NCBI GenBank assembly: GCA_030280995.1
Contig: JASXTE010000004.1
Span: forward strand, 42,967,297 to 43,031,296
Direction of reading: 5' to 3'
Length of the DNA: 64,000 nt
Source: Hemileia vastatrix
Taxonomy: Eukaryota; Basidiomycota; Pucciniomycetes; Pucciniales; Zaghouaniaceae
Part shown: in pieces, positions 325 to 60,854 of the stretch
Numbering within the stretch: position 1 is the stretch's first letter
How the letters are laid out: every line of letters starts with the position of its first letter
Notes under the pieces: model-generated
What the model was told of the DNA's origin: nothing
What the model saw: only the letters and a program-made list of their open reading frames with translations
The model's database searches: none
Program-made: the position numbers and the translations under genes

Positions 325-523
325 AGGGCGTATCAAAGTAAGAAATCTTTCATTTCAAAATACCTCTTTTTTCCCCCAAATCAAACATGATTATTTTTTA
401 AAATATGCCATTATGTGCCCCAAAAACAGCTTCTTACTAAGAATTGATGTCAAGTTTGTGGCTTTTTTTTGCATTGCAAAATACCTTTAAAATAGTTACA
501 AATTTCCAACTTTGATATCCCCT
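325..523. mobile_element. 199 bp Harbinger-type MITE, copy A
   Basis: A short non-coding element with terminal inverted repeats: left end AGGGCGTATCAAAGTAAGAA, right end reading outward as AGGGGATATCAAAGTTGGAA. It is flanked by the 3 bp target duplication AAT (322-324 and 524-526). The interior matches a second copy at 30793-30992. The first ten bases match the ends of the two large Harbinger-like elements in this window (AGGGGGTATCA), so it is probably mobilised in trans by that transposase. Confidence 0.85.
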
Positions 524-2322: not shown

Positions 2323-2768
2323 AGGGGGTATCAATGTTCAGGGATCCGCAATTAATTTAATTGCGGAAAATAATCTGCATACCCCAATTATATTCCACAA
2401 TTATTTTTGCTAACAATTGGGTTATTAGACACTTTACGTGTCAATGTTCACCTCTTATCTGACATTTTTTTACTCAATTTTTCATAACCACATCTTGGAC
2501 AACTTTCTGTCATAACCACATCTTGACCTACATTGTGCCATAACCACATCTTGGACTACTCACTGTATATGTATTCTACCTTTCTGTGCACTCCCATTAT
2601 CATCCCATACTGTTCATTCTATCTGCTCAGAACCCCTCACCATCTCATCTGCTTGTTTCTGCTCCTTTTCATCTCGCTATCTCATATGCTTGTTTCTGCT
2701 CCTTTTCATCTCTCTATCTCATCTGCTTGGTGTTTTCTGCTCCTTTTCATCTTCATTTATATTTTAAC

Positions 2769-4170
2769 ATGCCTTGTTGTCCTAGATCTTTTCAAGGGCA
2801 GCCATCACCCAGTTGTTCTTCAAATCCCACTACTCCCTCTTTCCCCCGCTCAGCCGAGAAATCTAAGACTGTTCAATTAAAAAAAGATGATCATCTCATT
2901 TTTATCAACTGGCTGAAAACCAAATCTAACTAAGATTCTTGTTTTGGTACTGAGTATGCAACTAAAGTAGGACACCCCCCAACATCAAAAGTTAATGGCT
3001 ATCTTCTAATGGCAAATGAATTACGGAATAAGACCAAGGGAAGGATTGATCTTTTGCCTAAACAGATGTCTGAACGCTTCAAGCATTACCAAGCCAAATA
3101 CAAGAAGGCAAAGGCTCTTTCATCTTCCACTGGTTTTGGGGTTACCGACATTGATATAAATAAGGGTATCAAATCCATAGACAATAAAATTGAATCTTTA
3201 TGTTCTTAATTTAAAGATATGGATGCAATTTTTTGAGAGCGAGCTGATGCTAATCATGTAGACATGTTGGATGGACAAGATCCTATCTCCAAACATGATG
3301 TTGAAGAAAATATTTTCCCATCCCCTTCCTCCACTCAAGCATCCCCTCATCTGAATGAGACAAATCTAGATAGCTTTTATGTAGATCCTATTGGTGATTT
3401 AACCTAACCAAATCTAACTCAGGTCTGTTTTTTTTCTTTTATTTTATCAATTCAATTTTTTTATTTACTTATCTTTTTCTTATTTCTTAAAAGGCTGACA
3501 AACAAACCCAGGATCCTCAATCAACTGAGTCTGAAGGTAGTGACAATGATGAGGAGGAAAATATGACCTTGAACAAGAAGTGTAGAGCTTCAAGTAGTAT
3601 AAATTTTGATTCCCAAAGAAGACAAAAAAGTGATACTTCATCACAAACCCCTTTTTTGTCTATGGAACAATTTTAAGAGAAACGTGATGCTGGTAAGTGA
3701 TACCATACCTATTATTACTTTACTCTGCTTTTCTTCTACTTTATATTACTTTTTATTATCACTCTTGAACAAGTGGAAATTGCTAAAGAGACTCTAAGCT
3801 TTGAAATGAAGAAATATGAGCTCTCTTTAAGGAGGGATGATAGGCTACAAGATTTGGAAGAGAGGAAGTATGAGCTCTCTTTACGGAAGGATGATCAGGC
3901 CCAAGATTTGGAGGAGAGGAAGTATGAGCTCTCTTTACGGAAGGATGATTGGGCCCAAGATTTGGAGGAGAAGAAGTTTGAGTTAACTCTAAGTATTGAA
4001 AAATCAAAAAAGAGGAGAAAACCCTTGAACATCAAAACCTATTAGAGCAGATGAAATATAAGTTTGATCATGAAGAAAATTCCAAAAAGAAAGATTTCTT
4101 GATAGAATGTGTTAAAGCTAATAAATATGTTGAAGAAATTGAACGTTCAAAGAAATTGTTGGATGACTAG
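2769..4170 (+). pseudogene. Myb/SANT-like DNA-binding partner of the Harbinger transposase, copy in H2
   Basis: Second gene of the element, probably the DNA-binding accessory protein that PIF/Harbinger elements need for end recognition and nuclear import. The ATG lies in ACATGCC at 2769. An N-terminal Ser/Pro-rich tail precedes the core with WLKTKSN, CFGTEYATKVG, LLPKQMSERFKHYQ and STGFGVTDIDI (about 2890-3170), then MDAIF. Two introns are likely: about 3422-3493 (ends TTAAAAG) and about 3693-3772 (starts GTAAGT). The C-terminus holds 54 bp tandem repeats encoding an 18-residue charged coiled-coil unit beginning KYELSLR (about 3810-3990). Stops in the core (for example after WLKTKSN and after ESLCS) and a frameshift near 4010 make it a pseudogene. 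Convergent with the Tet-like gene. Confidence 0.75.
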
Positions 4171-4329
4171 TTTGTTTTATTTCTCTCACACTTCAACTGT
4201 TCATATTTATTTGTACTTAAAATTTACAATAATTTCATTTATTTCATTACTCTATCAATCATTATTTGAATTTTTGTATTTTAATGTTAAATATTCTTTT
4301 TTTAAATAAAATTTTCATGTCTCCTTTGA

Positions 4330-4745
4330 AAATTTGATGATTTCCCACCCCTGCATTTTTTTGAAGTAAGGGGTGGGTATCACCAAAATTCTTTCATGTC
4401 ATGAATCTTGAAAGTCTTATATGAAAATTTGGCTTTACTACCCCCTGAATTTTACCGGTATCCCCAAAATTCTTACAAGTCAAGAATTTCACAAGTCTTA
4501 TAAGAAATTTTGGCAACCCCCCCCCCCCCCCTGGATTTTATTGAAGTAAGGGACGGGTTTCACCAAAATATTTACAAGTCAAAAATTTTACATGTTACAT
4601 TTGAGAATCTGGCAATACCCCCCCTAAATTTTATTGAAGCAAGGGGTGGGTATCACCAAAATTTTTACAAGTCTTCAATTTTGAATGTCAGATTTGAAAA
4701 TTTGGCAATAACCCCCCTGCATTGTATTGAAGTAAGGGGTGGAAG
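4330..4745. repeat. minisatellite between the convergent genes of H2
   Basis: About five imperfect units of 75-100 bp. Each has a C-rich run, then TTTTATTGAAGTAAGGGG or similar, ATCACCAAAAT, and AAAATTTGGCAAT. The inverted homologous array is at 9472-9905 in H1. It sits between the 3' ends of the Myb/SANT-like and Tet-like genes. The frame across part of it (about 4510-4764) simply translates the repeat and is not a gene. Confidence 0.8.
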
Positions 4746-5749
4746 TCATCTAAATTTAATATAATTACATAAATTATTAAATAAATATCTAATATATATC
4801 AATTTCCCTAGTTTAAAGTAATGGCAGTTCCACAAGCCAAAATGCAGATCAAATCTAGAAACAAAAGTTTGGGACTTTCCACAGGTATAGGCTAGAGGAG
4901 CCCCATGAAACAAATAAATGTTATCATGATTACCTGTTATACAACCAAAGGTCATTGGCTCATCACTTTTGTTGAGCAAATTGATATATAAAAAATATTT
5001 ATTAAAAATTTATGAAAAAATATAAAATTTTTGATGACAACTCTAATCACCATACTTTTTGGATCTAGATAAAGTTTTTTTAAATCGAGTAACTTTACCT
5101 TCTTTCTTTACCTTGTTGATTCTTTGAATCAACTTATGACTGATTTGAAATGAGCAACAAAAATGTGTGAAATCTTGACAGGATTCCAAACCAGGAGGAG
5201 CTTTGGTCATTTGATGATTATCCTGAGAGTAATTCCAAATTTTTTTGATGATACAATTTTCAAAACCAAAATCAATGATGCAATGGTGGTCTGGAAAATA
5301 TAAACCATGTCCTTTGATTTTAGCTGGAGATGGTATTGGTTGGCCAGTTATCAGATTGATATATGAGAATATACCAAAGGTAAGAAAATTAGCATCATTC
5401 CTATTGATATGAATGCTATTGTGGAATCCAGAATGAGTGATAATAACATTAGAAAATAAAAGATATTTGTGGGTGATATCTTCCCATTCGGAGTCACACC
5501 AATTTGGTATTCCAACTTTGGTTGAAAGTTCATGATTTTTTTCAAATGCTTTATTACAGAGCTTTTTGAATCAAAGAGCAAGAAAAGAGTTAAAGGAAGG
5601 TAGAGTGTCCTATAAGCAAAAATATTCATCTTTTTGAGCTTTAGTGATATTCTTGAGCAATGAATAGGGGGTATCAATGTTCAGGGATTCGCAATTAGGG
5701 ATCAGTAATTTTTTTTCCCGGGATCAGACATTATTAATTACGGAAGATT

Positions 5750-5781
5750 CTTATCCACTAGCCCCAGGGCTAGTGGATAAG
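5750..5781. promoter_or_regulatory. subterminal palindrome of H1
   Basis: A perfect inverted repeat: CTTATCCACTAGCCC, two bases CA, then GGGCTAGTGGATAAG. A slightly imperfect version lies at 21300-21330 at the equivalent end of H2. Its position about 85 bp inside the terminal repeat suggests a transposase or Myb/SANT binding site or a hairpin; this role is inference. Confidence 0.6.
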
Positions 5782-6045
5782 AAATCCACGATAATGCATT
5801 ATCCCGCCTCTTATACCCCAATTTCCATTCCTAATTCCTGATGCCAAACTCATCTCATCCATAATGGATTTGCAAGAAAGTCACATGACTCATAATTGCT
5901 GATGCCATCCTTAAGTCTTTCCTCACTCTATGCTACTTAATTTTGGTGGCGAACACTTAAGTTTTTTTTCTATCTACACACCCCAACTGCACATTTGGCG
6001 GTGAATTCCCACTTCCCTCATCACATAACCCTTCCACCAGCAACA

Positions 6046-7308
6046 ATGAAACACCTCTCTACTAGAAGGCTACTTCACTCCACTATTAATGCCATCACTT
6101 TACTTTTAGTTCTCTACTATAAATCTGACTCTGATTTGGAAGATGCTTTAGCTTATATGTGTTTACTTTCCAAAAAGCGTTACATCATCACCAGGGGGCC
6201 AAATCTTTATCATGATCCCCGATATGATCTGGCCTCCATTCTCAACATTCCTCATTTAAACTTCACGCAACTTTTTAGAACTTCTCCCAATTCTTTCTTC
6301 AAACTTTATCAACTCATTTCTGAACATCCTATCTTCCATAACAATTCTCATAAAAAACAGCGTAATCCTGCCATCCAACTTGCTGTTGCTCTATGTGGCT
6401 TTGGCTCAAATGGAAATGGTGCTGCCGTAAGACGTTTGGATAATCTCTTTAACATAGGATATGGTACCGTGATATTATACACCAAGTGCTGTATGATTGC
6501 TATCCTTTCCCTCAAGTCTCAAACTCTTGCTTGGCCAACTCCAGAACAGCGACTTGAATCCTCTCAAGTAATGCAAGCTGAAGGTTTCACTGGCTGTGTA
6601 GGATTTGTTGATGGCACAGCTATACCTTTGAGTCAAAAGCCTGCTCATGATGGCAACCATTATTTTGATCGCAAAAAAAGGTTTCTTCCAAATCTTCTCC
6701 AAGTTCTCATCTTTTACAATCTAACTTTTTATTTTCTTTCTAGATACTCTATCGCCGTTCAACTTGTATGTGATGTCAATAAAAAATTTATTGCTTTTCA
6801 CAGTGGCTGCCCTGGATCATGTCATGACTCTTCCGTCTTCCAAAGAATGAGGATTTCTCAATCCCCTGACTCATACTTTGACGAATCTCAGTACCTCCTT
6901 GCAGACTCAGCATATGCAAGTGGAAAGTACATTATACCTGCTTTCCGTGGTGCAACTTCAGAAAATGACCCCAAAACTGCCTTTAATTATCACCTTGCAC
7001 AATCAAGAGTACGAATTGAACATGCTATAGGTATTTCAAAAGGATGATTTTCTAGTCTTTGGGAGCTCAGAATCCAATTTCAAAAAAAATTGGAGATCAA
7101 AACTGCAAATCATTGGATCTTGACTTGTGTAATACTCCACAATATTCTAGCTGATTTAAAGGATGAGTGGAATGATCTTTATGAAGAAGAGGATCCTGAA
7201 CCACCACCGGCACTCCCCTCCCTTGATTCACAAATCATTCAATCAACTGGCATACGTTCCATTATAATGCCAATTACTCTCCAACATTTCACTTTGCAAT
7301 GCTTTTAA
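6046..7308 (+). pseudogene. HARBI1/PIF-type DDE transposase of H1, one in-frame stop
   Basis: Catalyses cut-and-paste transposition. The first ATG is at 6046 (the frame is open from 5995 without an ATG). The three catalytic acidic residues are visible: Asp in GFVDGTAIPLSQ (about residue 188), Asp in LLADSAYASG, Glu in RIEHAIG. A 63 bp intron (6681-6743, GTTTCT to TTTCTAG) is predicted between FDRKK and YSIAVQL; it is in frame and stop-free, so it is easily missed. A TGA at 7045-7047 follows GISKG, exactly where homologues carry Arg (KGRF), and the frame stays open to a TAA at 7306-7308 through ANHWILTCVILHN. H2 has the same TGA. Its partner is the Myb/SANT-like gene at the far end. Confidence 0.8.
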
Positions 7309-8535
7309 TTTTTAATTTTTACGTTTTCATACTTTCTAAATGTCCTCTTTGTGTACTTTATTCACTTGGTTTTGTATTTTGGTTTGTTGCATATTCATTT
7401 TTTTTTTTGAATTTACGGTGAAAATCTTTTTTTTGGATGGCTCATTGGTTTTCTTTCACCAGCTCAACATGAAATCGCATATTTTGTCAGTGATTTTTTT
7501 TATTCATCCCTCATATCCTTTTCCTATTCTCCTCCAACATCCCTCAAACAATTTGGTTTCATTCATTTTGTCATCTCATCTCTCCAGGTAAGTCATTTTA
7601 TTCTTTTTTTTTGATTTTTTGATTACTAATTATAATTTTTTTTTGTTTTTTTATGTTTATTTTATTTTTTTTATCTAAATTTTTTTTGTAAGTGGTTATT
7701 TTGGATTTCAATGGTATAATTAACATTTTTTTTCTCTCCCTCTTTACTTTATTTTTTAGCTCCATCACCTTACTCTTCATCCCTCCTTGGCATTGTCATT
7801 ATCCCCCCTTTCCCTTATTTCACTTTTTTTTGGCTCCATTTCATTGAAACACATACATTGAACATTCTTTATGCATTTCACTTACTCCATATTCAATTTC
7901 CCCACAATTCCAACATCAATCTTTCTCACTCTATTTTTCCTACTTTTCAATCAAGGTAAGTTTCATCTCCTTTTTTTCATGCCTATATGATATCTCATTC
8001 CTTTTATGAAAACTTCATACTTAAATATATGTATGACTCTTATCTGGATAACAGTGAACTTATAAAACTCCTTTTGATCTGATCTTCATTACCACTTTTC
8101 AAGTTTTTGTAAAATTTTGAAACTCAGACTCGGAATTAGGGTTAGGTTTATTCAAATCTAATGTTTTTTTTACTGAAGATTCTCCTGAAGGCTACCTTTC
8201 ATTTCCTTCAAACAGATTTGAATTTGATTCAGTGGTTGCTGAGATATTGACCGTTAAAGTTGAGCCTTTTTTTTCCCAATTTAAATTTTTATTTCATTTT
8301 TTTATGTAACAAATTAGGGTTAGGTTTATTTAAATCACATGTCCTTTAACTGAAGATTCTACTAAAGCATATCTTTCATTTCCCACAAATAGGTTTGAAT
8401 TAGGTTCAGTGGTTGCTGAGATTTTGACCTTTGAAGTTGAGCCTTTTTTCCAAATTTCACTTGTCTTATTTCACATTTTTATATTGCATATTTAGAGGAT
8501 AAGGATTCTGAAACTCTTATATGATTATTATCTAG
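7309..8535 (+). other. region between transposase and dioxygenase exon in H1
   Basis: Bases 7340-7640 match H2 (18483-18640 and 14930-15032, inverted) and the third copy (35180-35480). From about 7650 the sequence no longer matches H2. It is pyrimidine-rich, with possible splice-like sites (TTTTTTAG near 7759, GTAAGT near 7957). Two direct repeats of about 140-150 bp follow (8134-8284 and 8312-8450), each starting AATTAGGGTTAGGTTTATT. The Tet-like exon 1 seen in H2 is not here, so it has been lost or replaced in H1. Confidence 0.5.
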
Positions 8536-9164
8536 GCATATATTTGTTGGTCAAGAATATCACTAAAGCTCAAAAAGATGAAGATTTTTGCTTATGGGAC
8601 ACTCTACCTTCCTTTGACTCTTTTCTTGCTTTTCGACTCAAAAAGCTCTGTAATAAAGCATTTGAAGAAAATCATGAACTTGAAACCAAAGTTGGAATAC
8701 CGAATTGGTGTGACTCCAAATGGGAAGATATCAGCCAAGAATATCTTTTATTTTCTAATGTTATTATCACTCATTCTGGATTTCACAATAGGATTCATAT
8801 CGATAGGAATGATGCCAATTTTCTTACTTTTGGAATATTCTCATATATCAATCCGATAACTGGCCACCCAATACCATCTCCAGCTAAAATCAAAGGACAT
8901 GGTTTATATTTTCCAGACCACCGGTGCATCATTAATTTTGGTTTGGGAAATGGTTTCATCGAAACTATTTGGAATTCTTCTCAGGATAATCATCAAACGA
9001 CCAAAGCTCCTCCTGGTTTGGAATCCTGTCAAGATTTCACACATTTTTGTTGCTCATTTCAAATCAGTAATAAGTTGATACAAAGAATCAATAAGGTAAA
9101 GAAAGAAGGTACAGTTATTCGATTTAAAAAAACTTTATCTAGATCCAAAAAGTATGGGGATTAG
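8536..9164 (+). CDS. Tet-like 2OG-Fe(II) dioxygenase, catalytic exon (5' exon missing)
   Basis: An open 3' exon of about 208 residues starting after a CTAG acceptor at 8535, in the same phase as H2 exon 2; it ends with TAG at 9162-9164. Family features: the iron-binding HxD as HIDRNDANFLTFGIFSYIN (about residue 98), KGHGLYFP further on, a candidate distal iron-binding His in DNHQTT, then CSFQISNKLIQRI, where an Arg for 2-oxoglutarate is expected. In TET/JBP proteins this fold oxidises methylated pyrimidines; here DNA 5-methylcytosine is the likely but unproven substrate. There is no ATG at the start (TTG only) and the upstream exon with FGWRPDFVKG is absent, so the copy may be silent. It lies downstream of the transposase on the same strand and converges with the Myb/SANT-like gene. 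Confidence 0.7.
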
Positions 9165-9471
9165 AGTTGTCATCAAAAATTTTATATTTTTTCATAAATT
9201 TTTAATAAATATTTTTTATATATCAATTTTCTCAAGTAATGTGATGAGCCATTGACCTTTGGTTGTATAACAGGTAATCATGATAACATTTATTTGTTTG
9301 ATTTGTGAGGTTCCTCTTGCCTATACCTGTAGAAAGTCCCAAACTTTTGTTTCTAGACTTGGTCTGCATTTTGGCTTGAGGAATTGTCATCACTATAAAC
9401 TAGGGAAATTGATATATATTAGATATTTATTTAATAATTTATGTAATTATATTAAATTTAGATGACTTCCA
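9165..9471. other. 3' flank of the dioxygenase gene
   Basis: AT-rich sequence matching 4746-5040 of H2 in inverted orientation. No coding potential beyond a short chance frame; probably the 3' UTR and spacer. Confidence 0.5.
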
Positions 9472-9905
9472 CCCCTTACTTCAATAAAATGCAGGGGGGG
9501 GGTATTGCCAAATTTTCAAATCTGACATGTGAAATTGATGACTTAGAAAAATTTTGGTGATACCAACCCCTTGCTTCAATAAAATGCAGGGGAGAGTATT
9601 GCCAATTTTTTAAAACAGATATAGAATTTTTTTGACTTGTAAATATTTTGCTGAAAATTTTTTGGTGATACCCATCCCTTACTTCAATAAAATTCATGGG
9701 GTTTTTCGCCAAAATTTCTTATAAGACTTGTGAAATTCTTGACATGTAAGAATTTTTGGGATACCAGTAAAATGCAGGAGGTAGTAAAGCCAAATTTTCA
9801 TATAAGACTTTCAAGATTCATGATATGAAAGAATTTTTGTGATACCCACCCCTTACTTCAAAAAAATTCAGGGGTGGGGGATTGTCAAATTTTCAAAGGA
9901 GACAT
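9472..9905. repeat. minisatellite of H1
   Basis: Inverted counterpart of the array at 4330-4745. Roughly five units of 75-95 bp, each with TTACTTCAATAAAATGCAGG or close, GCCAAATTTTC, and TTTTGGTGATACC. It separates the 3' ends of the Tet-like and Myb/SANT-like genes. Confidence 0.8.
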
Positions 9906-10013
9906 GAAAATTTTATTTAAAAAAAGTGGGAGAGTAATGAAATAAAGGAAATTATTTGAAATTTTATGTACAAATAAATATGAACAGTTGAAGTGTGAGA
10001 GAAATAAAACAAA

Positions 10014-11414
10014 CTAGTCATCCAACAATTTCTTTAAACGTTCAATTTCCTCAACAGATTTATTATCTTTAACACATTCTATCAAGAAATCTTTCTTTTT
10101 GGAATTTTCTTCATGATCAAACTTATATTTCATCTGCTCTAATAGGTTTTGATGTTCGAGTGTTTTCTCCTCTTTTTTTGATTTTTCAATACTTAGAGTT
10201 AACTCAAACTTCTTCTCCTCCAAATCTTGGGCCCAATCATCCTTCCATAAAGAGAGATGGTACTTCCTCTCCTCCAAATCTTGGGCCTGATCATCCTTCC
10301 ATAAAGAGAGCTCGTACTTCCTCTCTTCCAAATCTTGTAGCCTATCATCCCTCCTTAAAGAGAGCTCATATTTTTGCTTTTCAAACTTTAGAGTCTCTTT
10401 AGCAGCTTCCACTTGTTCTAGAGTGATAAGCAATGTTAACAATAAGTAAAAGAAAAGCAGAGTAAAGTATTAATAGGTATGATATCACTTACCAGCATCA
10501 CGTTTCTCTAAAAACTGTTCCATCGAAGAAAAAGGGGTTTGTGATGAAGTATCACTTTTTTGTCTTCTTTGTGAGTGGAAATTTAGACTACTTGAAGCCC
10601 TACGCTTCTTGTTCAAGGTCATATTTTCCTCCTCATCATTGTCACTAGCTTCAGACTCAGTTGATTGTGGGTCTTGGGCTTGTTCATCAGCCTTTTAAGA
10701 AATAAGAAAATCTAAGTAAATAAAAAAAAGTATTGATAAGATAAAAGAAAAAAAACAGACCTGAGTTAGATTGGGTTGGGTTAAATCGCCAATAGGATCA
10801 ATAGCAAAGCTATCTAGATTCGTAGAATTTAGAAGAGGGGAGGCTTGAGCGGAGGAAGAGGATGGGAAAATATTTGCTTCGACATCATGTTTGGAGATAG
10901 GATCTTCACCAACCAACATGTTTACAGGATTAACATCGGCTCGCTCTCCGAAAATTGCATCCATCTCTTTAAAGTAAGGACATAAAGTTTAAAGTTTATT
11001 GTCTATGGATTTTATGCCCTTAGTTATATCGTTGTCGGTAACCCCAAAACCAGTGGAAGATGAAAGAGCCTTTGCCTTCTTGTATTTTTCTCAGTTATGC
11101 TTGAATCGTTCAGACATCTGTTTAGGCAAAAGATCAATCCTTCCCTTGGTCTTATTCCGTAATTCATTTGCCATTAGAAGATAGCCATTAACTTTTGATG
11201 CGGGGGGCCGTCCTACTTTAGTGGCATACTCAGTACCAAAACAAGAATCATAGTTAGATTTGGTTTTCAGCCAGTTGATAAGAATGAGATGTTCATCTTT
11301 TTTTAATTGAACGGTCTTTTATATCTCAGCTGAGCGGGGGAAAGAGGAAGTAGTGGGAGTTGAAGAACAACTGTGTGATGGCTGCCTTTGAGAAGATCTA
11401 GGATGACGAGGCAT
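10014..11414 (-). pseudogene. Myb/SANT-like accessory gene of H1
   Basis: Counterpart of 2769-4170. The ATG is at 11414-11412 (MPRHPRSS). The core holds WLKTKSNYDSCFGTEYATK, VGRPPASKVNGYLLM, LLPKQMSERFKH, STGFGVTDNDI and MDAIFGERADVNPV. After two introns (GT near 10760 and GTAAGTG near 10490) comes a coiled-coil C-terminus with 18-residue repeats (KYELSLRRDDRLQDLEER and variants), then EERKKKDFLIE-like charged sequence, and a stop at 10014-10016. Stops at the end of the Pro-rich tail (after SAEI), after FKHN and after DNKL break this copy. The family is recalled from fungal Harbinger-type elements; DNA binding is inferred. Confidence 0.75.
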
Positions 11415-11720
11415 GTTATTATAAATGAAGATGAAAAGGAGCAGAAACAAGAAGATGAGATAGCGAGATGAAAAGGAGCAGAATCAAATAGATGAAATGG
11501 GGAGAAATTCTGAGCCGATAGAATGAACAGGATGGGAAGAGAATGGAAGTGTGTAGAAAGGTAGAAGGCTGGGATATCCAGAAAGTTGTCCAAGATGTGG
11601 TTATCAAATATTGAGGATAAAAATGTCAGATAAGAGGTGAAAATTGACACGTAAAGTGTCTAATAACCCAATTATTAGCAAAAGTAATTGCGGAAGATAA
11701 TTGGGGTATGCAGATTATTT

Positions 11721-11742
11721 TCCGCAATTAATTTAATTGCGG
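11721..11742. promoter_or_regulatory. subterminal AT palindrome at the Myb/SANT-like end
   Basis: CCGCAATTAATTTAATTGCGG, nearly a perfect palindrome, lies about 25 bp inside the H1 right end and again at about 2347-2367 inside the H2 left end. Conservation in both copies suggests a functional end-recognition or hairpin site. Confidence 0.5.
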
Positions 11743-12515
11743 ATTGGTCAACATTGATACCCCCTAATATATGCCTATATAATTGAAATAAGTGAAATGA
11801 TATTAAGAATGGAAAAAAAATTATTATACTTACCAAGAGAATATCCTTTAACAAAATCAGGTCTCCAACCAAATCCAATCATGATACCACCCAACAAATT
11901 CATATTCCTTATAAGTAACCAATCCAAAGCCATTTGATAAAGAGTTATGATAAGATCGGATAGTTGATTAAAAGATTCATCTTTTACACCATCAAATGAA
12001 TGAACTTCCAAAATGAATTGAGCTTTATAAGTATTACTGATAACTGCAACAACTCAATCATCTCCAAATTTGGTTAGATATTTGATATCTTCTGGTAATT
12101 TTTTTGGATATTGATTTTTTTATCTACTTTAGTTTTATGAAAAAAAAGGTTTGGGATATGATAAAAAAAACTTTCACAGAGAATTTTTTTTTCAGATATC
12201 TTTTCTTCTGATTAGACTGATTATCTTTAATTTTTATTGATGATTTAGAAGATGAATTTTTTTTCAGAGATCTTTTCTTCTGATGAGACTGATTATCTTT
12301 AATTTTTTTTGATGATTTAGAAGAAGAATTTTTTTTTTCAGATATCTTTTATTCTGATAAGACTGATTATCATTAATTTTTTTTGATGATTTAGAAGATG
12401 ATTGTATTGAAGTTGATTTTGAAGAAGATGATAGAGATGATAAAGATGAAGATGATAAAGAGGATAAAGATAAAGATGATAGAGAAGTAAGGGGTGAATC
12501 TGAAGAAGAAGACAT

Positions 12516-13019
12516 TTTTTTGATCTGAAAAAAATTTAAATGTCAAAAAAAAATTCAACACATTTTTTTTAAAAAAAACTCACCTAATAATATCTTTTAA
12601 TATAAAATTTAAAGCAAAATCCTTTTAAAAAAAATTTAAAAAAAATTTTTAAAAAAAATATATATACAATAATTTTCAGTAAAATTTATTTCAAAAAAAA
12701 ACAATACAAAAGAAATCCTGAAGTTTGGTTATAAAAAACCTTCACAGAAAATCCTGAAAAAATAATTTAAAAAAATAAATAAATAAATAAATATAATCAG
12801 TAAAAGAAAAATCAAAACAAATAAATTAAATTAAAAAAAATTTAATTTAGTAAAATTTTTTGGAAGAAAAATTAAAAATTAAAATCTAAACCTTTTTTGT
12901 TTTGTAATTTACAGGGAAAGACCTTAACAGAATGTAAAAGATTTTTTTTTTCTAAAATTCTGCCAAAAAAAAAAAGAAAAAAATTACAAAAAACAAATTT
13001 TTAGTATGTCTTTTAGAAA
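12516..13019. other. A-rich upstream region of the H2 dioxygenase gene
   Basis: Poly-A and poly-AAAT-like sequence upstream (minus strand) of the Ser-rich N-terminus. No gene seen; it may hold the promoter of the Tet-like gene. Confidence 0.4.
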
Positions 13020-14930
13020 GTAGGTAACCCCTCTTTAACTGCCATAAAATTCACCTTTCCCCCCCTTATTTATCTGAAATCCCCTATAAAATCCCTCCCT
13101 CCTTGACTCAAAACCCCCCTCAAATCCCCTCCTTGCCTGCCTCAAAATCCCCCCTTTCCCCCCTCCTTAATTGCCTCAAAACCCCCCAAACCCCCCCTTT
13201 ACCCCTCATTATATGTCCCAAACCCCACTCTTTCCCCCCCTCTTTAGCCGCCTCAAAGGCCCCCCCTTTTAGGTCCCCCCCCTTATTGCTAACAATCGTT
13301 TTTTAAGGAGGAGGGGCTAGAGGTGGTTTAAGGGGACCTAAAAGGGGGGGAAGGGGGGATTCGAGGTGGCTAAAGAGTAGAGAAGGGGGGAGTGTTGAGG
13401 CACCTAAAGAGAGGGAAAGGGGGGTCATGAGGCGCCTAAAGACAGGGGAAGGTGGGGTCATGAGGCACCTAAAGAGGGGGGAAAGGGGGGATTTGGGACA
13501 GGTAAAGAGGGTGAACTAAGGGGGACATGAGGAAGGTAAAGAGAGGGAGAAGGAGTGTGTCAGTATAGTCTAGTATATAAGTATGATATAATAGTGTTTA
13601 TTTATGGTCCTACTACTTATTGATAAATGATTTAGTGATTAAACCTCAGGGGAAGACTAATAAAATAGTTATACTCAAATAAAACTCACAATACTTGGAT
13701 TTCAGTGCGTGCTAGTGGTGGAAAATAGATGAATAAAATATAGTTATAGCTTATATAAAGATAATATCAATTTATAATGGCTTTATAATATATTTCTAAA
13801 TGTTAATAATTGTATAGTAGTGTTTGTTGGAGTTGTAGTAATTGAATGATGATAAATAACCGTCGAAATCCCTCCTTACTTATACCCAAATCCACTGGAG
13901 TGCACAGACCTTCAATCCAGATGATGTCACTGCTATCCCCAGCAATTACAGCACTGTGAGGGCCCATCACCTCCCCATGGCGTCCACTTCAAGCAGTTTC
14001 AATACCCAGACCTCCAGTAGGGACCCTCCATCACTATTAATAATAACATAGGTCTATACCATAAATAGAAAATCCAGATAAAAGTGGATACCATAAAGAA
14101 ACAGGTAAAATAAACAGTCAAAAAGAGATTTAATGAAACTAAAAGCATATAAAGGAAACAAATAAAATTTCCAATCCCCCAATAACATCCCCAAGCATCC
14201 ACATTAACCCAAAAACATCCTTCCAACCCATAAATCCGTGAATAACCATCCAAGGAAGTAATTTTAGTTGTCCAAACTGGGTGTATGCGCCTGATATAGG
14301 TGTCTATGCTTCTGTAGGCGTTGTGAGTCCACTGATTTCGTCCATATGACCTAAAATAAGCAGAAAAACAAAGGTTATAGGCTATTAAGGGGCTAAAACC
14401 CACTTATATACCTAACTATACATAATATACTGCATATTTCACTGAATATGAGATTTATGTATACATATAAGCTTATGTATGTCAATAATTACTTCATATC
14501 ACTTAAGATAAGTATATTATGACTCCATCAACACCTTAATAAATATTATTAGGCCATGGATAAGCTATTTAAATTATTATAAGTTATATAATAGAATAAT
14601 AATTATATATATATATAATAAAATAATATATATTATTATTTTAACCTTATTTTTAAGATATAAGCTTAATCTACTTAAGGTTATCTTATTTTAAGCATAA
14701 GAAATACTCAGTCCTAAGGATATTTAAGCTGACAGAGTGACTTGAGGCAGGTAAAGAGAGAGGAAAAGTGGTGAAATGAGGCAGCTACAGAGAGTGAAGG
14801 TGAGAAAGAAAAAAGAAAAAAAAAGAGAAAAAAATTAGTCTAACCTTGAAAATAAAAAAAGAGGACTTACAAAAAAAAAAAAAAAAAAAGCAAAAAAAAA
14901 AATTCATGATTAGCAAATAAAAAACAAGAA
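13020..14930. repeat. C-rich/G-rich fold-back of H2, split by a solo LTR
   Basis: Bases 13040-13300 are extremely C-rich (CCCCCTCCTTGCCTCAAAA-type units) and 13305-13557 plus 14735-14830 are the G/A-rich counterpart (GGGGAAAGGGGGG, GAGGCACCTAAAGAG), centred near 13300. The arms could form a long imperfect hairpin, G-quadruplexes or triplex DNA. A similar structure is at 34320-35040 beside the third Harbinger copy; H1 lacks it. Confidence 0.65.
13558..14734. repeat. solo LTR (family Z), 1177 bp
   Basis: Starts TGTCAGTATAG and ends TTTAAGCTGACA, with inverted ends TGTCAG and CTGACA, flanked by a perfect 5 bp target duplication GAGTG (13553-13557, 14735-14739). It interrupts the purine arm of the H2 fold-back. 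No internal domain remains, so it is a recombination remnant of an LTR retrotransposon. The 134-codon frame on the minus strand (13999-14403) has no recognisable domain. Confidence 0.85.
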
Positions 14931-15032
14931 AAAAGAAAAAAAAAGACTTATCTGGTGAGATGAGTAGAGAAAATAAAATTAAACAAAATATTTGAGTGAT
15001 GTTTGAGGAGAGGATGAAAAGGATATGAGTGA

Positions 15033-18000
15033 CACAGGGGGGAAAAAAGGAGGACTGGTAGGCGAGTCATTTTTTTGAATTTTGGACTAACCTTGTTGTA
15101 ACCTGGTTATATTTCTGGGTAGGATTAAACTCATCTTTTTTACATATTTTTGATGCTATATACAGGTCTGATGCATGATAAAAGTAAAGAAGTTTATCTC
15201 ATTTCTTTAAAATAGACCATTATTAATTTTTTCAATTTCATTTCTTAATATATGTTCTGATAATTTTTTTTATTAATTTATATCAAATTTTTGGCCACTT
15301 TAAAATATTTTTATTTTGATTATTATAGACTTCTTAAGTTCCAAAAAATATTTATATTTGTTCAACTCTTTTTTTACACATATTATCTGGTTCAAATTTC
15401 CATACTATATGTACTTCAATCCACTTCCACATAATGAAATATTGAAATATGTAGAAAATTAAAAATAATTAGTACAAAGTAAAAATTATTGCTCAAATTT
15501 AATGAAAAAATATTTATTTATCATCTAAATTTTATATCCATTATTCATGAATAATGAAAGAAAATATTGGCCAGATTCCATAGGCATATTAAATTTTTTT
15601 TTAAATTTATGTCATTTTTAATATAAATTTTCAACAAGAGTGGATGATTTCTTTCCCATTCTTTGAGGCCCATTTTTTATTTTTTGACCTCAGGTAGATT
15701 AATCAAAGAAAATCTACCCCCCTTAGTTATAAAATCTTTCTCCACTCACTCTTTGTGCTCCACTAATAATAAAACCAAAAAAACCTTGAAAGCATTTATT
15801 GTATCCTATTTTGTACTCTTATATACACTCCATTCTATATGTTTAACTATCATCCCCCAGTGTGTCCTCTTCAAGATGCATAAATCCCATACATTTTTTT
15901 TTGCAAAGATCACACTTCCCCAATTTTTCACTGTCTTGAATTCCCTGTTCTACCCCCCAAATCCTATTTTTTCTGCTTGAATTACCCCCCACTTCTTTAC
16001 AATCCCTCATTTACCCCTGCAAAGATCTTTTTTTCACCCTCAGGATCCCTATTGCACCTCTACATTTTACGTTTTTCTCCACCGGCCTTTCCCATCTTTC
16101 CCCCCATAAATCCTTCTTGTCACCAAGTTACACTCTCACACCTCCACATTTTATGGTAAAAGTTCTTTAGAAACTCTTTTTTTCATTTGGCCTGATGTCT
16201 TATACCACCCCTCTAAAGTATTTTGTACTTACTCATGTAAAGTTTCAAGTCACATGCATCAAAGTGTTGCAGCATCACTTAGCTGCACGGGATCTCAGTT
16301 TTTTTCCTCCCCTTCACTCAAAAAATTGACTCTGGGCCTTGAAAACACAAGTCAGGTGCAGGAAAGTGTCCCGGCGACACTTCCTTGCACGTGACCTCAG
16401 TATTTTCATTGCACTTTTTTCTTCTCTTTAACTCAGTGCATTAGTAAACTGAATCACATATAATTTAATGTTTCTAAAGACCTTTTTTTAATGAAACTGG
16501 GGGGATGTAAGGGACTGTGTAAGACAGTAGAGTGAAGGGAAAAATATTGGGTGGGGCAAGGGGCTAGTATAGAAAATGAGTAATTTCAGAGGATGAAAAA
16601 GACAATGAGTATTGTTATAAATAAATTTAAAAGGAGGGCTTGTAGGGAAAAAAAGGAAAATTGATAGAGAAGGAGGGGGTTCAAGAGGTAAAAAAATTTG
16701 TGTAAGTAGAAGAGATTTAACACCCCATTGAGTAACTCAAGCGCCAGCAGGGGGGCACCTGCAGGGGCAAAAGAGGGGATTAAAAAGGGAAAAAAGGAGG
16801 ATACAGAGCTGTTACAGGAATTTTAAAAGTGATTTCTTCCTCCGCATATTTAATTTAAATAGTAAAGACATTATATAGAAAATTTAATTTAAGACTACCC
16901 AATACAATGATTCATTTTTTTAAAAAAAATTTTGCCTTAAAGATAAAGTATTTTCCCGGTATATGTATTTTGGAAAGACTATCATTTAATAAAAAAATTT
17001 CTAAGCTGACTGAATGTTTGAAAAACATTTTTGAATTCACCTTATATAATTCTTCACCTCATATTCCATTTTTTTCATCCACCAAAAAAAATAAATAAAT
17101 AGAGGTGATGAATTATCACCACAAAATTGTTAAAAAAACTTAACAAATGTAAATATTTTATTGGTACAAACAAAATGTGATGCATCAACTACATCAAGAT
17201 GCCTTAATTTATGATTTATGCAGAAGTAATAGTAGAACTTGTGAATTCTGATAAGCAAAAATTTCTGAGTTAGGTAAAAATAATTTGAAAAGGAGAAAAA
17301 AGGAAAAAATAATATAAAATAAATGTGGCAAAAAATTAGTGAACACCATATCTAGCACTTCAAAACATGGGGAAAAAAATTTAAATAAATCAATTTTTTA
17401 CAATTAAATCCTCAAAATCACTTGTTACACTAACTTTAAACAAGATATTGGTATCAAAAGCATGTCACATACTGAAGTTTATTAAAGAGTTAAAAATGCA
17501 AGATGAGAAAAACAGAAAAACCAAACTTAATAGAAAACAAAGAAAAATTGAAAGTGAAAAATTGCTAATGAGTCTATTACTTTATAAAAATCTTTTTAAA
17601 ATATTCCATTAAATTTAAAGAATTTAATGTGGTAAGATATTGTAGTTTTTTCCACTTTTATTTTTCAGAATAATTTGCAAAAAAAAAAATTTCTGAATCA
17701 TCAAGGGGATAAGTATGTTTATTTTTCTCATTTTTCAAAAATCAACAACTAATATGATTTTTTTTTCTAAAAAAATGTCATTTCAGGTCACAATTATTTT
17801 TTTTTACAAAATTTGATGTATGATAGATATAAAATCCTGAATAAAAAGCTGTAGTTATTTTTTTGTAAAAAATATTTTTTGGGGATATAACATCTTTCTT
17901 TTTTTTCCTACCTCTGTAATAGAAGACATAGCAGTTGAATCATTGCACCAGATAATTAAATATATATTTATAAATTAAAAATTCATGATCAGAACTATAA

Positions 18001-18479
18001 TATTCTTTTACAGCTCCTCATGCACAAAATAAGTAGATAATCAATATTTTATATAAAATTTAATAAATTTTTATCATAAATTCATTTTTAATAAAGATGA
18101 TCAATAAATACTGAAAATGAAATGTGCATCAAAGTTTAATATGTCCTTTACATCTATATAAAATATTTATTGTGTGTCCATGAAATATGTTCAGTATGAA
18201 TATATTTTGATCATTTTATATGGATATTTATATAACTATAGTATGTCTCTTTTAAGATATGCAAGATTCATCAACATTGAAAAAAGAATTAATTTATTTT
18301 CTTCCTTCTTGAGGTCATGATTTCAAGGAACAAAAAGAGGGAGGAAGTAGAAAAGAATTTTCAAAATATTTACTTGAAATTTTTCCACTCATACCCACCC
18401 CTACAATATTACTTCAAAGATTACTCCAGAAGACCTGAAAAATGACTTGATTGCAAGTCCTCATTTTTTCCCCCCTGTG
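15033..18479. mobile_element. 3.4 kb DNA transposon with CACAG ends, no evident transposase
   Basis: Terminal inverted repeats of about 45 bp: left CACAGGGGGGAAAAAAGGAG, right reading outward CACAGGGGGGAAAAAATGAG, both followed by GACT..., with AGTCATTTTT further in. Flanks are TGA (15030-15032, 18480-18482). Removing it restores a sequence matching H1 at about 7515-7545 inverted. The interior is AT-rich with a GC-richer patch near 16260-16400 and 16730-16780. No frame (15663-15980, 16907-17098) shows a transposase motif, so it is probably non-autonomous. The ends and the 3 bp duplication recall CACTA (EnSpm) elements, but the class is not certain. Confidence 0.8.
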
Positions 18480-18672
18480 TGATGAATGAAAAAAAAAATC
18501 ACTGACAAAATATGTGATTTCATGTTGAGCTGGTGAAAGAAAACCAATGAGGCATCCAAAAAAAAGATATTCACTGTAAATTCCAAAAAAAAGTGAATAT
18601 GCAACAAACCAAAATACCAAACAAAGTGAATAAAGTACACAAAGACAAAATTTGGAGAGTACGAAAAATATT

Positions 18673-19987
18673 TTAAAAGGGTGGTGAAGAGAAATGTTGG
18701 AGAGTAATAGGCATAATGGCAGAGCGTATGCCAGTTGAATGAATGTTTTGTGATTCAAGGGAGGGGAGAGCTTGTGCTGGTTCAGGATCATCTTCTTCAT
18801 AAAGATCATTCCACACATCCTTTAAATCAGCTAGTATATTGTGGAGTATAATTCAAGTCATGATCCAATGATTTGCAGTTTTGATCTCCAATTTTTATTT
18901 GAAATTGGATTCTGAGCTCCTGAAGACTAGAAAATCATCCCTTTAAAATACCTATAGCATGTTCAATTTGTACTTTTGATTGGGCAAGGTGATAATTAAA
19001 GGCAGTTTTGGGGTCACTTTCTAAACTTGCACCACGGAAAGCAGGTATAATGTACTTTCCACTTGCATATGCTGAGTCTGCAAGGAGGTATTGAGATTCG
19101 TCAAAGTATGAGTCAGGGGTTTGAGAAATCCTCATTTTTTGGAAGACAGAAGAGTCATGAAATGAGCCAGGGCAGCCACTACAAAAAGCAATAAATTTTT
19201 TATTGAAATCACATACAAGTTGAACGGCAATAGAGTATCTAGAAAGAAGATAAAAAATTAGTTTATGAAGGATGAGAAATTGGAGAAGATTTTGAAGAAA
19301 CATTTTTTTGAAATCAAAATAATGGTTTCCATCATAAGCAGGCTTTTGACTCAAAGGTATAGTTGTGCCATAAACAAATCCTACACAGCCAGGGAAACCT
19401 TCAACTTGCATTACTTGAGAGGATTCAAGTTGCTGTTCTGGATTTGGCCAAGCAAGTGTTTGAGACTTCAGGGAAAAAATAGCAATCATACAGCACTTGG
19501 TGTATAATATCACGGTACCATATCCTATGTTAAAGAGATTATCCAAAAATCTTACAGCAGCACCGTTTCCATTTGAGCCAAAGCAACATAGAGCAACGGC
19601 AAGTTGGATGGCAGGATTATGCTGTTTGTTATGGCAATTGTTATGAAAGATAGGATGATTGGAGATGAGTTGATAAAGTTTGAAGAAAGAATTGGGAGAA
19701 GTTCTAAAAATTTGGGTGAAGTTTAAATGAGGAATGTTGAGAATGGAGGCCAGATCATATCGGGGATCATGATAAAGATTTGGCCCCCTGGTGATGATGT
19801 AACACTTTTTGGAAAGAAAACACATATAAGATAAAGCATCTTCCAAATCAGAGTCAGATTTATAGTAAAGAACTAAAAGAAAAGTAATTGCATTCATTTT
19901 TAAGTGAAGTAGCTTCCTAGTAGAGAGGTGTTTTATTGTTGCCGGTGGAAGGGTTATGTGATGAGGGAAGTGGGAATTCACCGCCAA
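18673..19987 (-). pseudogene. HARBI1/PIF-type transposase of H2, inactive
   Basis: Close copy of 6046-7308. The frame spans 19987-18935 and continues past a TGA to about 18673. It is inactive: the first catalytic Asp is replaced (GFVYGTTIPLSQ, Asp to Tyr), the homologous start Met is Ile (PATIKHLS), and a frameshift lies after the shared TGA near 18895. The other catalytic residues remain (LLADSAYASG, QIEHAIG). The in-frame intron is recognisable between FDFKK and YSIAVQL. It reads outward from the H2 right end like the H1 gene from the H1 left end. Confidence 0.8.
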
Positions 19988-20178
19988 ATGTGCAGTTGGG
20001 GTGTGTAGATAGAAAAAAAATTTAGGTTTTTGCCACCAAAATTAAGTAGCATAGAGTGAGGAAAGACTTAAGGATGGCATCAGCAATAATGAGTCATGTT
20101 ACTTTCTTTCAAATCCATCATGGATGAGATGAGTTTAGGATCAGGAATTAGGAATGGAAATTGGGGTATAAGAGGCGG

Positions 20179-21273
20179 TGTAGACAATCCTATAGTACTA
20201 GCTTTAGGCCTTGACCAAGGGAGTTGGAGAAAAACCAGAGAGAAAATCCCCTGTCCCTTTAGAAAAATAGAGTGAGATTTACTTGCTAAAGTGAGTTGGT
20301 TCCTTTTTTGCTAAAGCTCCTTTTCAACACACTTGACTGCTTGATGAGCCAAGAAAGTAGTCACCAGATAGACTACCAGACCAAAGAACTGAAATGTAGA
20401 ACAAAGTCCACACCAGAGACAGCAAAGATACTTGATGTAGGCTGCAAATCCACACCAGAGACAGCAATAATACTTGCTATAGCTTGCAAGACTATAACAG
20501 AGAAAATAGTTGCCAAAGTTAAGTTAAATGAAGAACTTACTTGCAACAAACACAGCCAATTGTGGCCAGAAAACAGTGAAAACTGAGTGAGGAACAATGA
20601 TATCACCTCCGGATGGTTGTATGATGATTAAGGTTGCCCCAAACTGTCTTATTCACTATGAACACACAGACCACTAACTAAGAGCCCATGCGCACCCACC
20701 AATCTGGCACCTGTACCCGCCAAATTGCATAAAAAACCCTCCTGGAGCGCTCCCCAACCTCCTAAAACAGAGGCTGGCGGGCCGCCCAACGTCGGAGATG
20801 CCACCTGAAGCAGCCCGGCCTCCCTGAAGCCAGAAAACTAATAAAAACAACTAATCTACTTTGAAAAATTAGCTACAACTACTAAAACCTTTAAAACACG
20901 GAATTTCACTATAACAACATTGTGACATGAAATATATAGAGAAAAATTAGCTCTATCCAATGGTACTAAGCACTTAACCCTAAGGCTTAAGGTTAGCCCG
21001 TAAAACAAGAAAAACAAAATTAAACAGCAATCTTTTATAAATGAAAAATGAGTAAATGACCCCTTAAAACTTAGAATATGAAAAATGTCTTCTAGACATA
21101 AAATATAGAGAAAAACCAGGGCTATCCAATGATAGTACACACATACCCTCAGACCCAATATCCATGGAATAAAACCAGAAAAATACCCAATTCCTTAACA
21201 GATTTCAATTAAGACATGCACAAACAGCGCCAAATAACACAACAAAGGCCCCTGCCAATGTTGGAAGACCACA
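20179..21273. repeat. solo LTR of family X, copy 1
   Basis: 1095 bp, TGTAGACAATCC to GGAAGACCACA, flanked by 4 bp GCGG (20175-20178, 21274-21277). It splits the H2 terminal region: the sequence on both sides matches H1 5785-5830 continuously once removed. Inverted homologue at 42399-43449. Contains a GC-rich patch near 20740-20825. The orientation of the parent element is not known. Confidence 0.88.
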
Positions 21274-21414
21274 GCGGGATAATGCATTATTGTGGATTCC
21301 TTATCCACTAGTCCCGCGCTAGTGGATAAGAATCTTCCGCAAATAATAATGTTGGATCCCAGGAAAAAAAATTCCTGATCCCTAATTGCGGATCCCTGAA
21401 CTTTGATACCCCCT

Positions 21415-21763
21415 AATATATAATTTTAATTAATTAAATTTTAATTCCATTATAATTTTAATTTTTCAATTGTGATTATAATATAAATTTACAAATAATT
21501 AATTATCAATTTATTAATATTAAATGCATAAAAAATATACCATGATTTATAGAATATGATATATAATATGTTTGGTGTAAGTGTATAAATCATTTATTTA
21601 ATAATAAAATTAATATAATACTTATTTTACTTATTTTAATAAAATTTTTATATAATTTTATGATGTAATAAAAAATTATTTTAATTGCATAAAATACATC
21701 ACTTTATTCCCTCCAATAAAATATTATACATTTTACTGGGCTCTTCAGACAGCCTGGCTGACA
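21415..21763 (-). repeat. proximal part of the Gy2 3' LTR
   Basis: Starts (minus strand) with TGTCAGCCAGGCTG after the purine tract complementary to 21764-21776. It ends at the H2 insertion and matches the 5' LTR start at 31189 downwards. The first three bases, AAT, are the H2 target duplication. Confidence 0.85.
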
Positions 21764-29732: not shown

Positions 29733-31189
29733 TGCCGGTTTGTCTAGAAGGAGGAGGAATAATGGAGAAGAAGAAGAGAGAGGAGAAGAAGGAAAAACTT
29801 AAATGTAAAAGAGGAGAAAGGAGAAAAGGAATAAGAGATAAATTGACAATTAAAAAATGGAAGTAATAGGACTAATGAAAAAAGGTGGACTCAATTACAA
29901 TAGTAAGTATTTTAATCTATCTCTGCTTAACTATCAACAACTAATGATTAAAAATCTCTTAAAGAAACCATTATAATTTTATTTAATAGTTAAGGGGACA
30001 GAAATGCCACAATAAACAATCAAGTAGACTATAGTTTTAAAATATGATAAAGTAATGTAAGTGATGGGCTGAAGGGGATTACCCAAGACCTTTTTATAGG
30101 CAAGGGGTCCTTTGAAGAACCACAAATTTGTAAATACAAAATGATAACAAAATGAAACAAGAAAATAAAAGAATATAATTGAAAACTGGTTATTGAGAGA
30201 AAAATATGAAACAAGGAATTAAACCCACAAATAAGAACTAATTTTTCCCATCCTGCATTCCCAAACCAGTTAATAAAAATAGTGAGTAGCTACACAAATT
30301 TTTAACATGGGAAACTGAGAGTAATATATCCAAAATAGGTATTACAATGAAATTTAAGTGGTTTAATTGAACCAATATAATCATAACATTTTTACGAAAT
30401 TAATTATATAATCAATTTAAGCCCAAAAAAGAATTCAGTAATTGTTTTAAGTATTCCATTTGAGTAATAACTAAATTAAGTGAAAAAGGTAACTTATTTA
30501 ATGAACAATAATTAAAATTAAGTATTTAATTTATTTTATTAAGTATTTTAATTTATTAAATGAAATATTTTTTGAACACAGTTAAGGGTCAAAAAAGCGC
30601 CCAATATTTATGGATTATAACATATGAGAAGATTGATTTAATATATAGTTTTAATTAATTAACTTTTAATTCCATTATAATTTTAATTTTTCAATTTTAA
30701 TTATAATATAGATTTACAATAAATTAATTATTAATTTATTAATATTATATGCATAAAAAATATGCCATTATTTATAGAATATGATATATATTAGGGGGTA
30801 TCAAAGTTAGAAATCTTCCATTTCAAAATACCTCTTTTTTGCATCACATCCACCATGATTATTTTTTTAAATATGCCATATTGTGCCCCCAAAAGACATT
30901 TTTACTGAGAATTAATGTCAAGTTTGTGAATTTCTATTTGTGCAGTGAAATACCTTTTAAATAATTACAAATTTCTAACTTTGATACCCCCTATTATGTT
31001 TGGTGTAAGTGTATAAATCATTTATTTAATAATAAAATTAAATTATATTTTTTTACTTATTTTAATAAAATTTTTATATAATTTTATGATGTAATAAAAT
31101 ATTATTTTAATTGCATAAAATACATCACTTTATTCCCTCCAAAAAAATATTATACATTTTACTGGGATTTTGAGACAGCCTGGCTGACA
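29733..31189 (-). repeat. Gy2 5' LTR
   Basis: Minus-strand LTR starting TGTCAGCCAGGCTG at 31189 and ending near CCGGCA at 29733. 1457 bp including MITE B (200 bp). A TATA box reads TATAAAAAG on the minus strand (30098-30090), as in the intact element's LTRs. Confidence 0.82.
30793..30992. mobile_element. 200 bp Harbinger-type MITE, copy B
   Basis: Ends AGGGGGTATCAAAGTTAGAA and, outward from the right, AGGGGGTATCAAAGTTAGAA, an inverted repeat of at least 20 bases. Flanked by ATT (30790-30792, 30993-30995). It sits inside the Gy2 5' LTR; the other LTR lacks it at the equivalent place (about 21570). Homologous to MITE A. Confidence 0.9.
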
Positions 31190-60844: not shown

Positions 60845-60854
60845 AGTGAGGGAG
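60843..60854 (+). promoter_or_regulatory. polypurine tract
   Basis: AGAGTGAGGGAG immediately before the 3' LTR, overlapping the stop codon of Gag-Pol. It primes plus-strand DNA synthesis in LTR elements. The same tract precedes the Gy2 3' LTR on the minus strand. Confidence 0.8.

Follow-up and report, generated by a model that had tools for sequence, protein, structure and literature searches.

Harbinger transposons that carry a Tet-like dioxygenase were described in December 2025, when Kojima (PMC12730594) reported 15 such TET+ families in six rusts, a lineage named PHISTA. In the parts of that report available to us, PHISTA elements have TA target duplications, their third protein lacks Myb/SANT, an anti-silencing function is proposed for TET+ Harbingers, TET genes are described as transferred between transposon superfamilies, and CcTET, a fungal relative, is stated to oxidise 5-methylcytosine (5mC). 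As far as the literature was accessible, we found no second report of a Harbinger with TET. A 2019 study of Hemileia vastatrix (PMC6472787) listed 2,954 Harbinger repeats, and its main text, as available, does not contain the word dioxygenase. Here, we focus on two nested Harbinger elements, H1 and H2, in a 64-kb stretch of the H. vastatrix genome (C121:42967297-43031296, hereafter the window). A sequence-only reading of the window knew of no association between Harbinger and a Tet-like dioxygenase; the feature is real, but its kind has been in print since December 2025 with the same proposed function. Both window copies are damaged. Taken together, the data make it probable that a large H. 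vastatrix Harbinger family, to which H1 and H2 belong as decayed copies, has a Tet-like dioxygenase that oxidises 5mC on element DNA.

Long-form members are predicted to carry genes for a DDE transposase and, downstream in the same orientation, a Tet-like dioxygenase with two exons; a third protein is predicted on the opposite strand. In H1 (5666-11765; positions are those of the window), the frame at 8496-9161 matches PF20515 (Tet-like 2OG-Fe(II) oxygenase; 2OG, 2-oxoglutarate) with E 2.6e-27 and contains the HxD motif in HIDRND, as the sequence-only reading had claimed for the extra gene. This dioxygenase exon 2, including its stop, lies at 8536..9164 (+), with HxD at 8796-8804 and the distal H at 8919-8921. 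The H1 gene is not complete: the match covers only profile positions 50-211 and the long-form exon 1 is absent, a query with H2 exon 1 matching only itself in the window. H2 (2323..21414) lies in inverted orientation and contains H1 together with further insertions. Its exon 2 (5046..5657, -) matches PF20515 with E 3.7e-18 for 5043-5570 and its HxD reads HIN, and its broken exon 1 (11834..12515, -) yields a weak match (E 0.075) for 11775-12053. H1 sits inside the H2 dioxygenase gene, which it splits a few bases into exon 2; H2 exon 1 also contains a stop, and frame breaks lie upstream. In L018, a copy on contig C2, the spliced dioxygenase matches PF20515 over positions 9-211 of 211 with E 7.3e-37, so the profile search proposed as a check did not fail. 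An alignment (A3) was made of L018, H1 and 8 of 30 fetched PF20515 loci picked for long open frames, with H2 excluded. The HxD motif and the distal H, which form the facial triad of TET/JBP enzymes, are invariant in all ten rows; outside this alignment, L012 reads HIN, as H2 does, and L054 reads HTN.

To see how regularly the dioxygenase occurs, we searched the genome (747,610,610 bases, 791 contigs). Exact 14-mer end tags were found 8,469 times and the reversed pattern 0 times. From 100 listed end tags, all in the first 10.3 Mb of C2, we drew 10 facing pairs spaced 5.4-7.5 kb apart, other spacings being left out. These end-to-end copies all contain the transposase (partial in L009) and the third gene, eight contain exon 2 and two contain the long-form exon 1. 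They represent three forms: long, with the entire dioxygenase (L011 and L018); short A (six copies); and short B, with no dioxygenase (L013 and L017). Genome-wide tags allowing ≤2 mismatches numbered 2,972 for the transposase, 3,882 for exon 2, 1,748 for exon 1 and 3,562 for the short-A segment, with 0 for each of the four reversed-tag controls; as the tags differ in sensitivity, their ratios are rough. Among the listed exact tags on C2 between 0 and 25.77 Mb, 36 of 74 transposase tags were followed on their own strand, at 1-5 kb, by an exon-2 tag, compared with 2 on the wrong side and with a mean of 0.57 and a maximum of 4 in 500 random shifts. An exon-1 tag lay at this distance for 17 of the 74, and one or the other exon for 42. 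This co-location and the presence of exon 2 in most end-to-end copies uphold the claim that the dioxygenase is a regular third gene, although the census asked of full-length copies agrees only for exon 2, both long-form exons being confined to the two long copies. PF20515 gave 10,849 first-look candidates in the genome, of which 150 were scored, all above the cut-off; it was found in 0 of 14 control genomes. Exon 1 was present in each of the best 30 PF20515 loci, as expected from their having been picked by score, and 10 of these had the coiled third gene or a piece of the transposase in their 1.5-kb flanks.

In at least one copy, each of the three genes has a frame that stays open across its domain. 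This copy is L018: with the intron read in frame, its transposase is open for 454 codons, the two dioxygenase exons are open and contain HxD, and the third-gene frame is open for 261 codons; compared with other copies, the dioxygenase ends ~14 codons and the coiled exon ~20 codons early. A second subfamily is represented by L049 on C121, which has ends AGGGGGTGTCA, AAT/AAT duplications and the layout of L018. Its dioxygenase is uninterrupted over 393 codons, its third gene is open, and its transposase contains one stop and is 59% identical to that of L018. Of the five loci with a complete dioxygenase, L011, L018 and L049 show no stop where their exons were compared, L050 shows one, and the L051 match contains three TAA.

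Between subfamilies, the dioxygenase appears to be under purifying selection. The rates of nonsynonymous (dN) and synonymous (dS) substitution in the catalytic exon were 0.085 and 1.60 for L018 and L049, and 0.088 and 1.43 for L050 and L049; in exon 1, they were 0.157 and 0.76 for L018 and L049. Synonymous sites of the transposase were saturated. This corresponds to dN/dS values of ~0.05 for the catalytic exon, a rough figure because dS is near saturation, and ~0.2 for exon 1. In view of these values and of the tag co-location, accidental cargo was judged unlikely. The sequence-only reading had reached the same view because the gene trio keeps its order in both H1 and H2; this shared layout is confirmed here, and both copies are damaged.

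The divergence of the dioxygenase conflicts with that of its neighbours. L018 and L051, the latter of a third subfamily, differ at 0.21 and 0.14 per synonymous site in the transposase exons and at 0.27 in the third gene, but at 0.61 and 0.76 in the dioxygenase exons, and the bootstrap intervals of the dioxygenase and the other genes do not overlap. The L051 dioxygenase lies inside proper ends with AAT/AAT. For L049 and L018, the conflict runs the other way: nucleotide identity is 79% over the dioxygenase (L018 3685-5309), compared with 69% for the transposase and 68% for a third-gene stretch. This conflict implies exchange, and because it is seen at synonymous sites, exchange fits better than differences in rate. 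Among the three elements compared, the dioxygenase thus seems to have been exchanged as a cassette between Harbinger subfamilies. The conflict is within-genome evidence for exchange, and for selection as a unit. It is a real possibility, if not quite the expected one, that the dioxygenase is a modular anti-silencing cassette, swapped among Harbinger subfamilies within one genome independently of the transposase and the partner gene. Such swapping would be expected of an arms race with host methylation or hypermutation in which enzymes or their specificities are replaced over time; non-autonomous elements would then parasitise the segment, and the abundant short form would give the catalytic exon a new N-terminus.

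H1 has AGGGGGTATCA ends with AAT on either side. Its terminal inverted repeats are 16 bp long and perfect (5666..5681, +, and 11750..11765, -), and its left target duplication (5663..5665) is identical to the right one (11766..11768). Joined with one AAT, the H1 flanks match the paralogous H1 gene with no gap at the junction, which bears out the defined ends and AAT duplication claimed for H1. H2 has AGGGGGTATCA ends and an AAT duplication as well, with the three genes ordered as in H1 but inverted, and its flanks joined with one AAT match 30583-30710, again with no junction gap. Two miniature inverted-repeat transposable elements (MITEs) share such ends: MITE_A (30793..30992, 200 bp) has the ends of H1, an ATT duplication and an empty site at 21508-21623 whose junction has no gap, and MITE_B (325..523, 199 bp) has similar ends with one mismatch each and an AAT duplication. 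Empty sites were gap-free at the junction in all three cases with a usable reference (H1, H2 and MITE_A), MITE_B having no reference. Of the 19 end pairs examined, MITEs and non-autonomous elements among them, 18 had a 3-bp duplication, which makes 19 of 20 when L051 is added; the sole exception is L013, with AAT on one side and ATT on the other. The inverted repeats and 3-bp duplications are those of PIF/Harbinger elements. Chance does not explain the ends: in the window, those of the AGGGGGTATCA type with ≤2 mismatches numbered 31 against 13.6 expected, a count that 0 of 100 shuffles reached.

How does this compare with PHISTA? The shared features are a Harbinger-class transposase, a regular TET/JBP-type dioxygenase (here PF20515 above the cut-off, with the gene inside the element ends), a third protein, rust hosts and the same proposed role. 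As far as the published description goes, PHISTA differs in its TA duplications, where ours are of 3 bp, and in third proteins without Myb/SANT, where ours have sub-threshold similarity to it; Hemileia is not among the six named species. We considered a TA duplication for H1 and H2 and rejected it, since both empty sites have a gap-free junction with one AAT and would need a 3-base junction gap under the TA reading. All 19 end pairs do, however, permit TA to be read from the ends, and the published TA duplications may thus reflect another reading of one and the same structure. The 3-bp duplications raise the question of whether TET+ Harbingers truly have TA duplications. Beyond the content of PMC12730594 available to us, the additions made here are the 3-bp duplication, a third protein that may be Myb/SANT-like, a further rust host, selection measured between subfamilies, signs of exchange among Harbinger subfamilies and an abundant form whose N-terminus is replaced. 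Canonical PIF-Harbinger elements and Nuwa share 3-bp duplications, a DDE_Tnp_4 transposase and a further protein that is possibly of Myb/SANT type; the elements described here differ in carrying a dioxygenase, and our 38-row transposase tree included no named Nuwa sequence. The KDZ transposons (Kyakuja, Dileera and Zisupton) are likewise DNA transposons with a Tet-like dioxygenase, but DDE_Tnp_4 takes the place of the KDZ transposase here, and the duplications are of 3 bp rather than the 7-8 bp given for KDZ in PMC12730594.

The transposase is of the IS5/Harbinger DDE type. In H1, it is encoded in two exons (6046..7305, +), matches DDE_Tnp_4 with E 4.4e-17 and is broken by a TGA at 7045-7047; the broken H2 region (18676..20041, -) matches with E 1.2e-15 for 18935-20041. 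L018 reaches E 7.8e-26. The only Pfam matches of the transposase were DDE_Tnp_4, DDE_Tnp_1 and Plant_tran, with none to a KDZ-type transposase, and NCBIfam gave weak IS5-type matches. At what we take to be the catalytic positions, the first D is a Y in H2, and in both copies a TGA lies downstream of the E. The PIF/HARBI1 transposase predicted for H1 and H2 is thus present in both, broken in both. A protein search with the H1 transposase returned 129 homologues at E ≤ 0.001; among the 120 listed, rusts were prominent and two rows were named HARBI1. Among these listed matches, the closest relatives were from Puccinia (50% identical), and Austropuccinia psidii transposases were 36-45% identical over 300 residues. 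In the 38-row tree, the window transposase groups with those of P. coronata and P. striiformis (97/96), apart from a larger Puccinia group to which every P. graminis row belongs.

The third gene of H1 (10014..11414, -), a Myb/SANT-like candidate with a coiled region, is broken by stops, and that of H2 (2769..4170, +) is broken too. The gene is present as predicted, and its likeness to Myb/SANT stays below threshold: PF13837 is its only match, with E 0.0021 in L049, 0.019 in L018, 0.024 in L050 and 0.041 in H2, all below the Pfam cut-off of 27 bits, and the H1 piece has no PF13837 match in Pfam. Its AlphaFold model has low confidence (predicted local distance difference test, pLDDT, 66), with no Myb/SANT among the few weak Foldseek and VIA-align rows, and a profile search of the PDB gave no structure match. 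The third protein may be a diverged Myb/SANT DNA-binding partner. An intact three-gene H1 was rejected, as the long-form exon 1 is absent and the transposase and third gene are broken. Because its own transposase is broken, H1, as a short-form copy, would be mobile only in trans.

In short-A copies (six of the ten on C2, and H1), the stretch corresponding to L018 2037 to ~4186, exon 1 included, is replaced by 838-850 bp, with a junction ~9-15 bp upstream of the exon-2 acceptor. The H1 segment (838 bp, 7689..8526) is common to short-form copies and contains a candidate alternative first exon (7871..7955, +) of 28 hydrophobic codons from ATG to a GTAAGT donor. We checked ten short-form loci, namely H1, the six C2 copies and the non-autonomous L052-L054: in all ten, this leader stays open up to CAAG|GTAAGT and would join exon 2 in phase. 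Leader plus exon 2 stay open for 237 codons to the regular stop in H1, L010 and L012, and the other seven stop earlier. The segment also contains an adjacent direct repeat of 172 bp (8134-8305 and 8312-8482, 82% identical). A short-A tag lies upstream of 63 of 100 exon-2 tags. Three loci with a short-A tag but no transposase tag (L052:2654-6108, L053:3216-6949 and L054:3370-7115) proved to be non-autonomous elements, 3.5-3.75 kb long. Their ends are AGGGGGTGTCAGTTCTGGCAAAT, their duplications are AAT or ATT, and their termini, which are those of the L049 subfamily, enclose an H1-family piece with dioxygenase exon 2. They carry a stretch like L015 1662-4017 (94-95%), in which the exon-2 frame ends early, and an inverted transposase-like block ~70% identical to L015 602-1001; in L054, a frame resembles the L049 transposase by eye. 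As such elements carry exon 2, its copy number overstates that of the dioxygenase gene.

CpG is depleted in the window (observed/expected 0.27; GpC 0.99). The observed/expected CpG ratio is 0.36 in H1, 0.19-0.23 in two H2 stretches and 0.44 at 35.7-51.5 kb, with GpC at 0.67-1.13 across the compared stretches. Of the 76 sites that are CpG in either H1 or H2, 44 are TpG/CpA in the other copy, compared with 20 of 167 equivalent GpC changes (p 2.6e-13), and H1 is the copy that keeps CpG in 33 of the 44. This decay fits cytosine methylation followed by deamination, without being proof of it.

The regular presence of the dioxygenase and the purifying selection on it fit an anti-silencing role. In such a role, the host would methylate CpG in Harbinger elements, the dioxygenase would oxidise 5mC on element DNA, oxidation would let transcription of the transposase continue and keep the ends fit for use, and CpG decay in the elements would be slowed. 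Several observations weigh against this. Eight of the ten end-to-end copies lack exon 1 and two have no dioxygenase gene at all; 29 of 74 transposase tags have no exon-1, exon-2 or short-A tag within 5.5 kb; and 49 of 100 exon-2 tags (among the 63 above) belong to short-form units without a transposase tag. Between H1 and H2, dioxygenase exon 2 has a dN/dS of 0.73, not different from neutral (p 0.41), next to constrained transposase exons (0.44, p 0.014, and 0.45, p 0.015) and third-gene pieces at 0.32 (p 0.23) and 0.43 (p 0.11). A gene that was captured, does nothing for the element and spreads along with it as a passive passenger would account for this ratio, for the copies that lack part or all of the gene and for the non-autonomous elements that spread exon 2 alone. 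It accounts poorly for the low dN/dS of both exons between subfamilies, for the invariant HxD and distal H in A3, and for a position and orientation kept between L018 and L049 despite the divergence of their transposases, and we consider a passenger very improbable. On these data, the dioxygenase looks constrained on a longer time scale and relaxed between the damaged H1 and H2.

Other observations concern what the enzyme would do. It resembles CcTET and the PU-type TET/JBP proteins in its HxD...H iron motif and its Tet-like Pfam family. It differs in that A3 shows no invariant Arg after the distal H, the position where, going by TET/JBP and AlkB, we presume the 2OG-binding Arg to lie; a Lys is invariant instead. 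Sequence searches of solved structures (PDB) with the dioxygenase yielded no TET, only unrelated weak rows or none; protein searches with exon 2, alone and X-padded, gave no match at E ≤ 0.001 among 36 and 81 candidates, and NCBIfam gave no match. The proposed structure prediction was carried through for exon 2, and its AlphaFold model (pLDDT 34) was unusable. The lack of a match to a solved TET and of the Arg would suit an active 2OG dioxygenase with a substrate or role other than 5mC erasure: glyceryl-5mC as for CMD1, N6-methyladenine as for CcTET, RNA, or the transposition reaction. The available parts of PMC12730594 leave other activities open too, yet, like Pfam, they group such proteins with TET/JBP, and the CpG decay shows a methylation-like process on the elements; another substrate therefore seems unlikely, if the least so of the alternatives. 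The H1-type short form could also be functional in itself, its hydrophobic leader spliced to exon 2 serving as a replaced N-terminus, with a product that would regulate the full enzyme or compete with it. The leader being open and in phase at every locus checked, the 237-codon frames and a short-A tag count above that of the transposase speak for this. However, exon 2 is stop-free over the 175 compared codons in only four of seven short-form Harbinger copies, one of which (L012) has HxN, and the two comparable non-autonomous copies have one stop each. Profile positions 1-49, at the N-terminal end of the domain, are absent, agreement in phase has a one-in-three chance, the copies are closely related, and the high copy number is at least partly due to non-autonomous elements, which leaves a functional short form distinctly improbable. 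If 5mC oxidation is what the enzyme performs, well over a thousand self-propagating elements in the genome of one crop pathogen, where elements have lost much of their CpG, would carry, or would have carried, their own methylation eraser, and rusts would offer a testable natural system for transposon escape from DNA methylation.

The window contains further repeats. H2 holds an insertion of ~3.4 kb (15033-18479) with ends CACAGGGGGG...CCCCCCTGTG and an apparent TCA duplication, EnSpm/CACTA-like by its ends, and one of ~1.1 kb (20178-21274) with TG...CA ends that resembles a solo long terminal repeat (LTR) and has relatives at 42396-43452 (92%) and 28677-29703 (73%). A fragment at 34984-35612 is ~71% similar to the 3' end of the H1 transposase and the sequence downstream of it, and is perhaps a remnant of another Harbinger copy. 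A long simple-repeat array at 52190-52850 has frames that alternate Lys-Ile, Phe-Tyr, Phe-Ile, Leu-Phe or Asn-Lys. An intact-looking Gypsy-type LTR retrotransposon spans 52817-61995, with LTRs at 52817-53957 and 60855-61995 that are 99.8% identical; its single 2070-codon frame (54632-60844) contains only 6 CpG (observed/expected 0.03).

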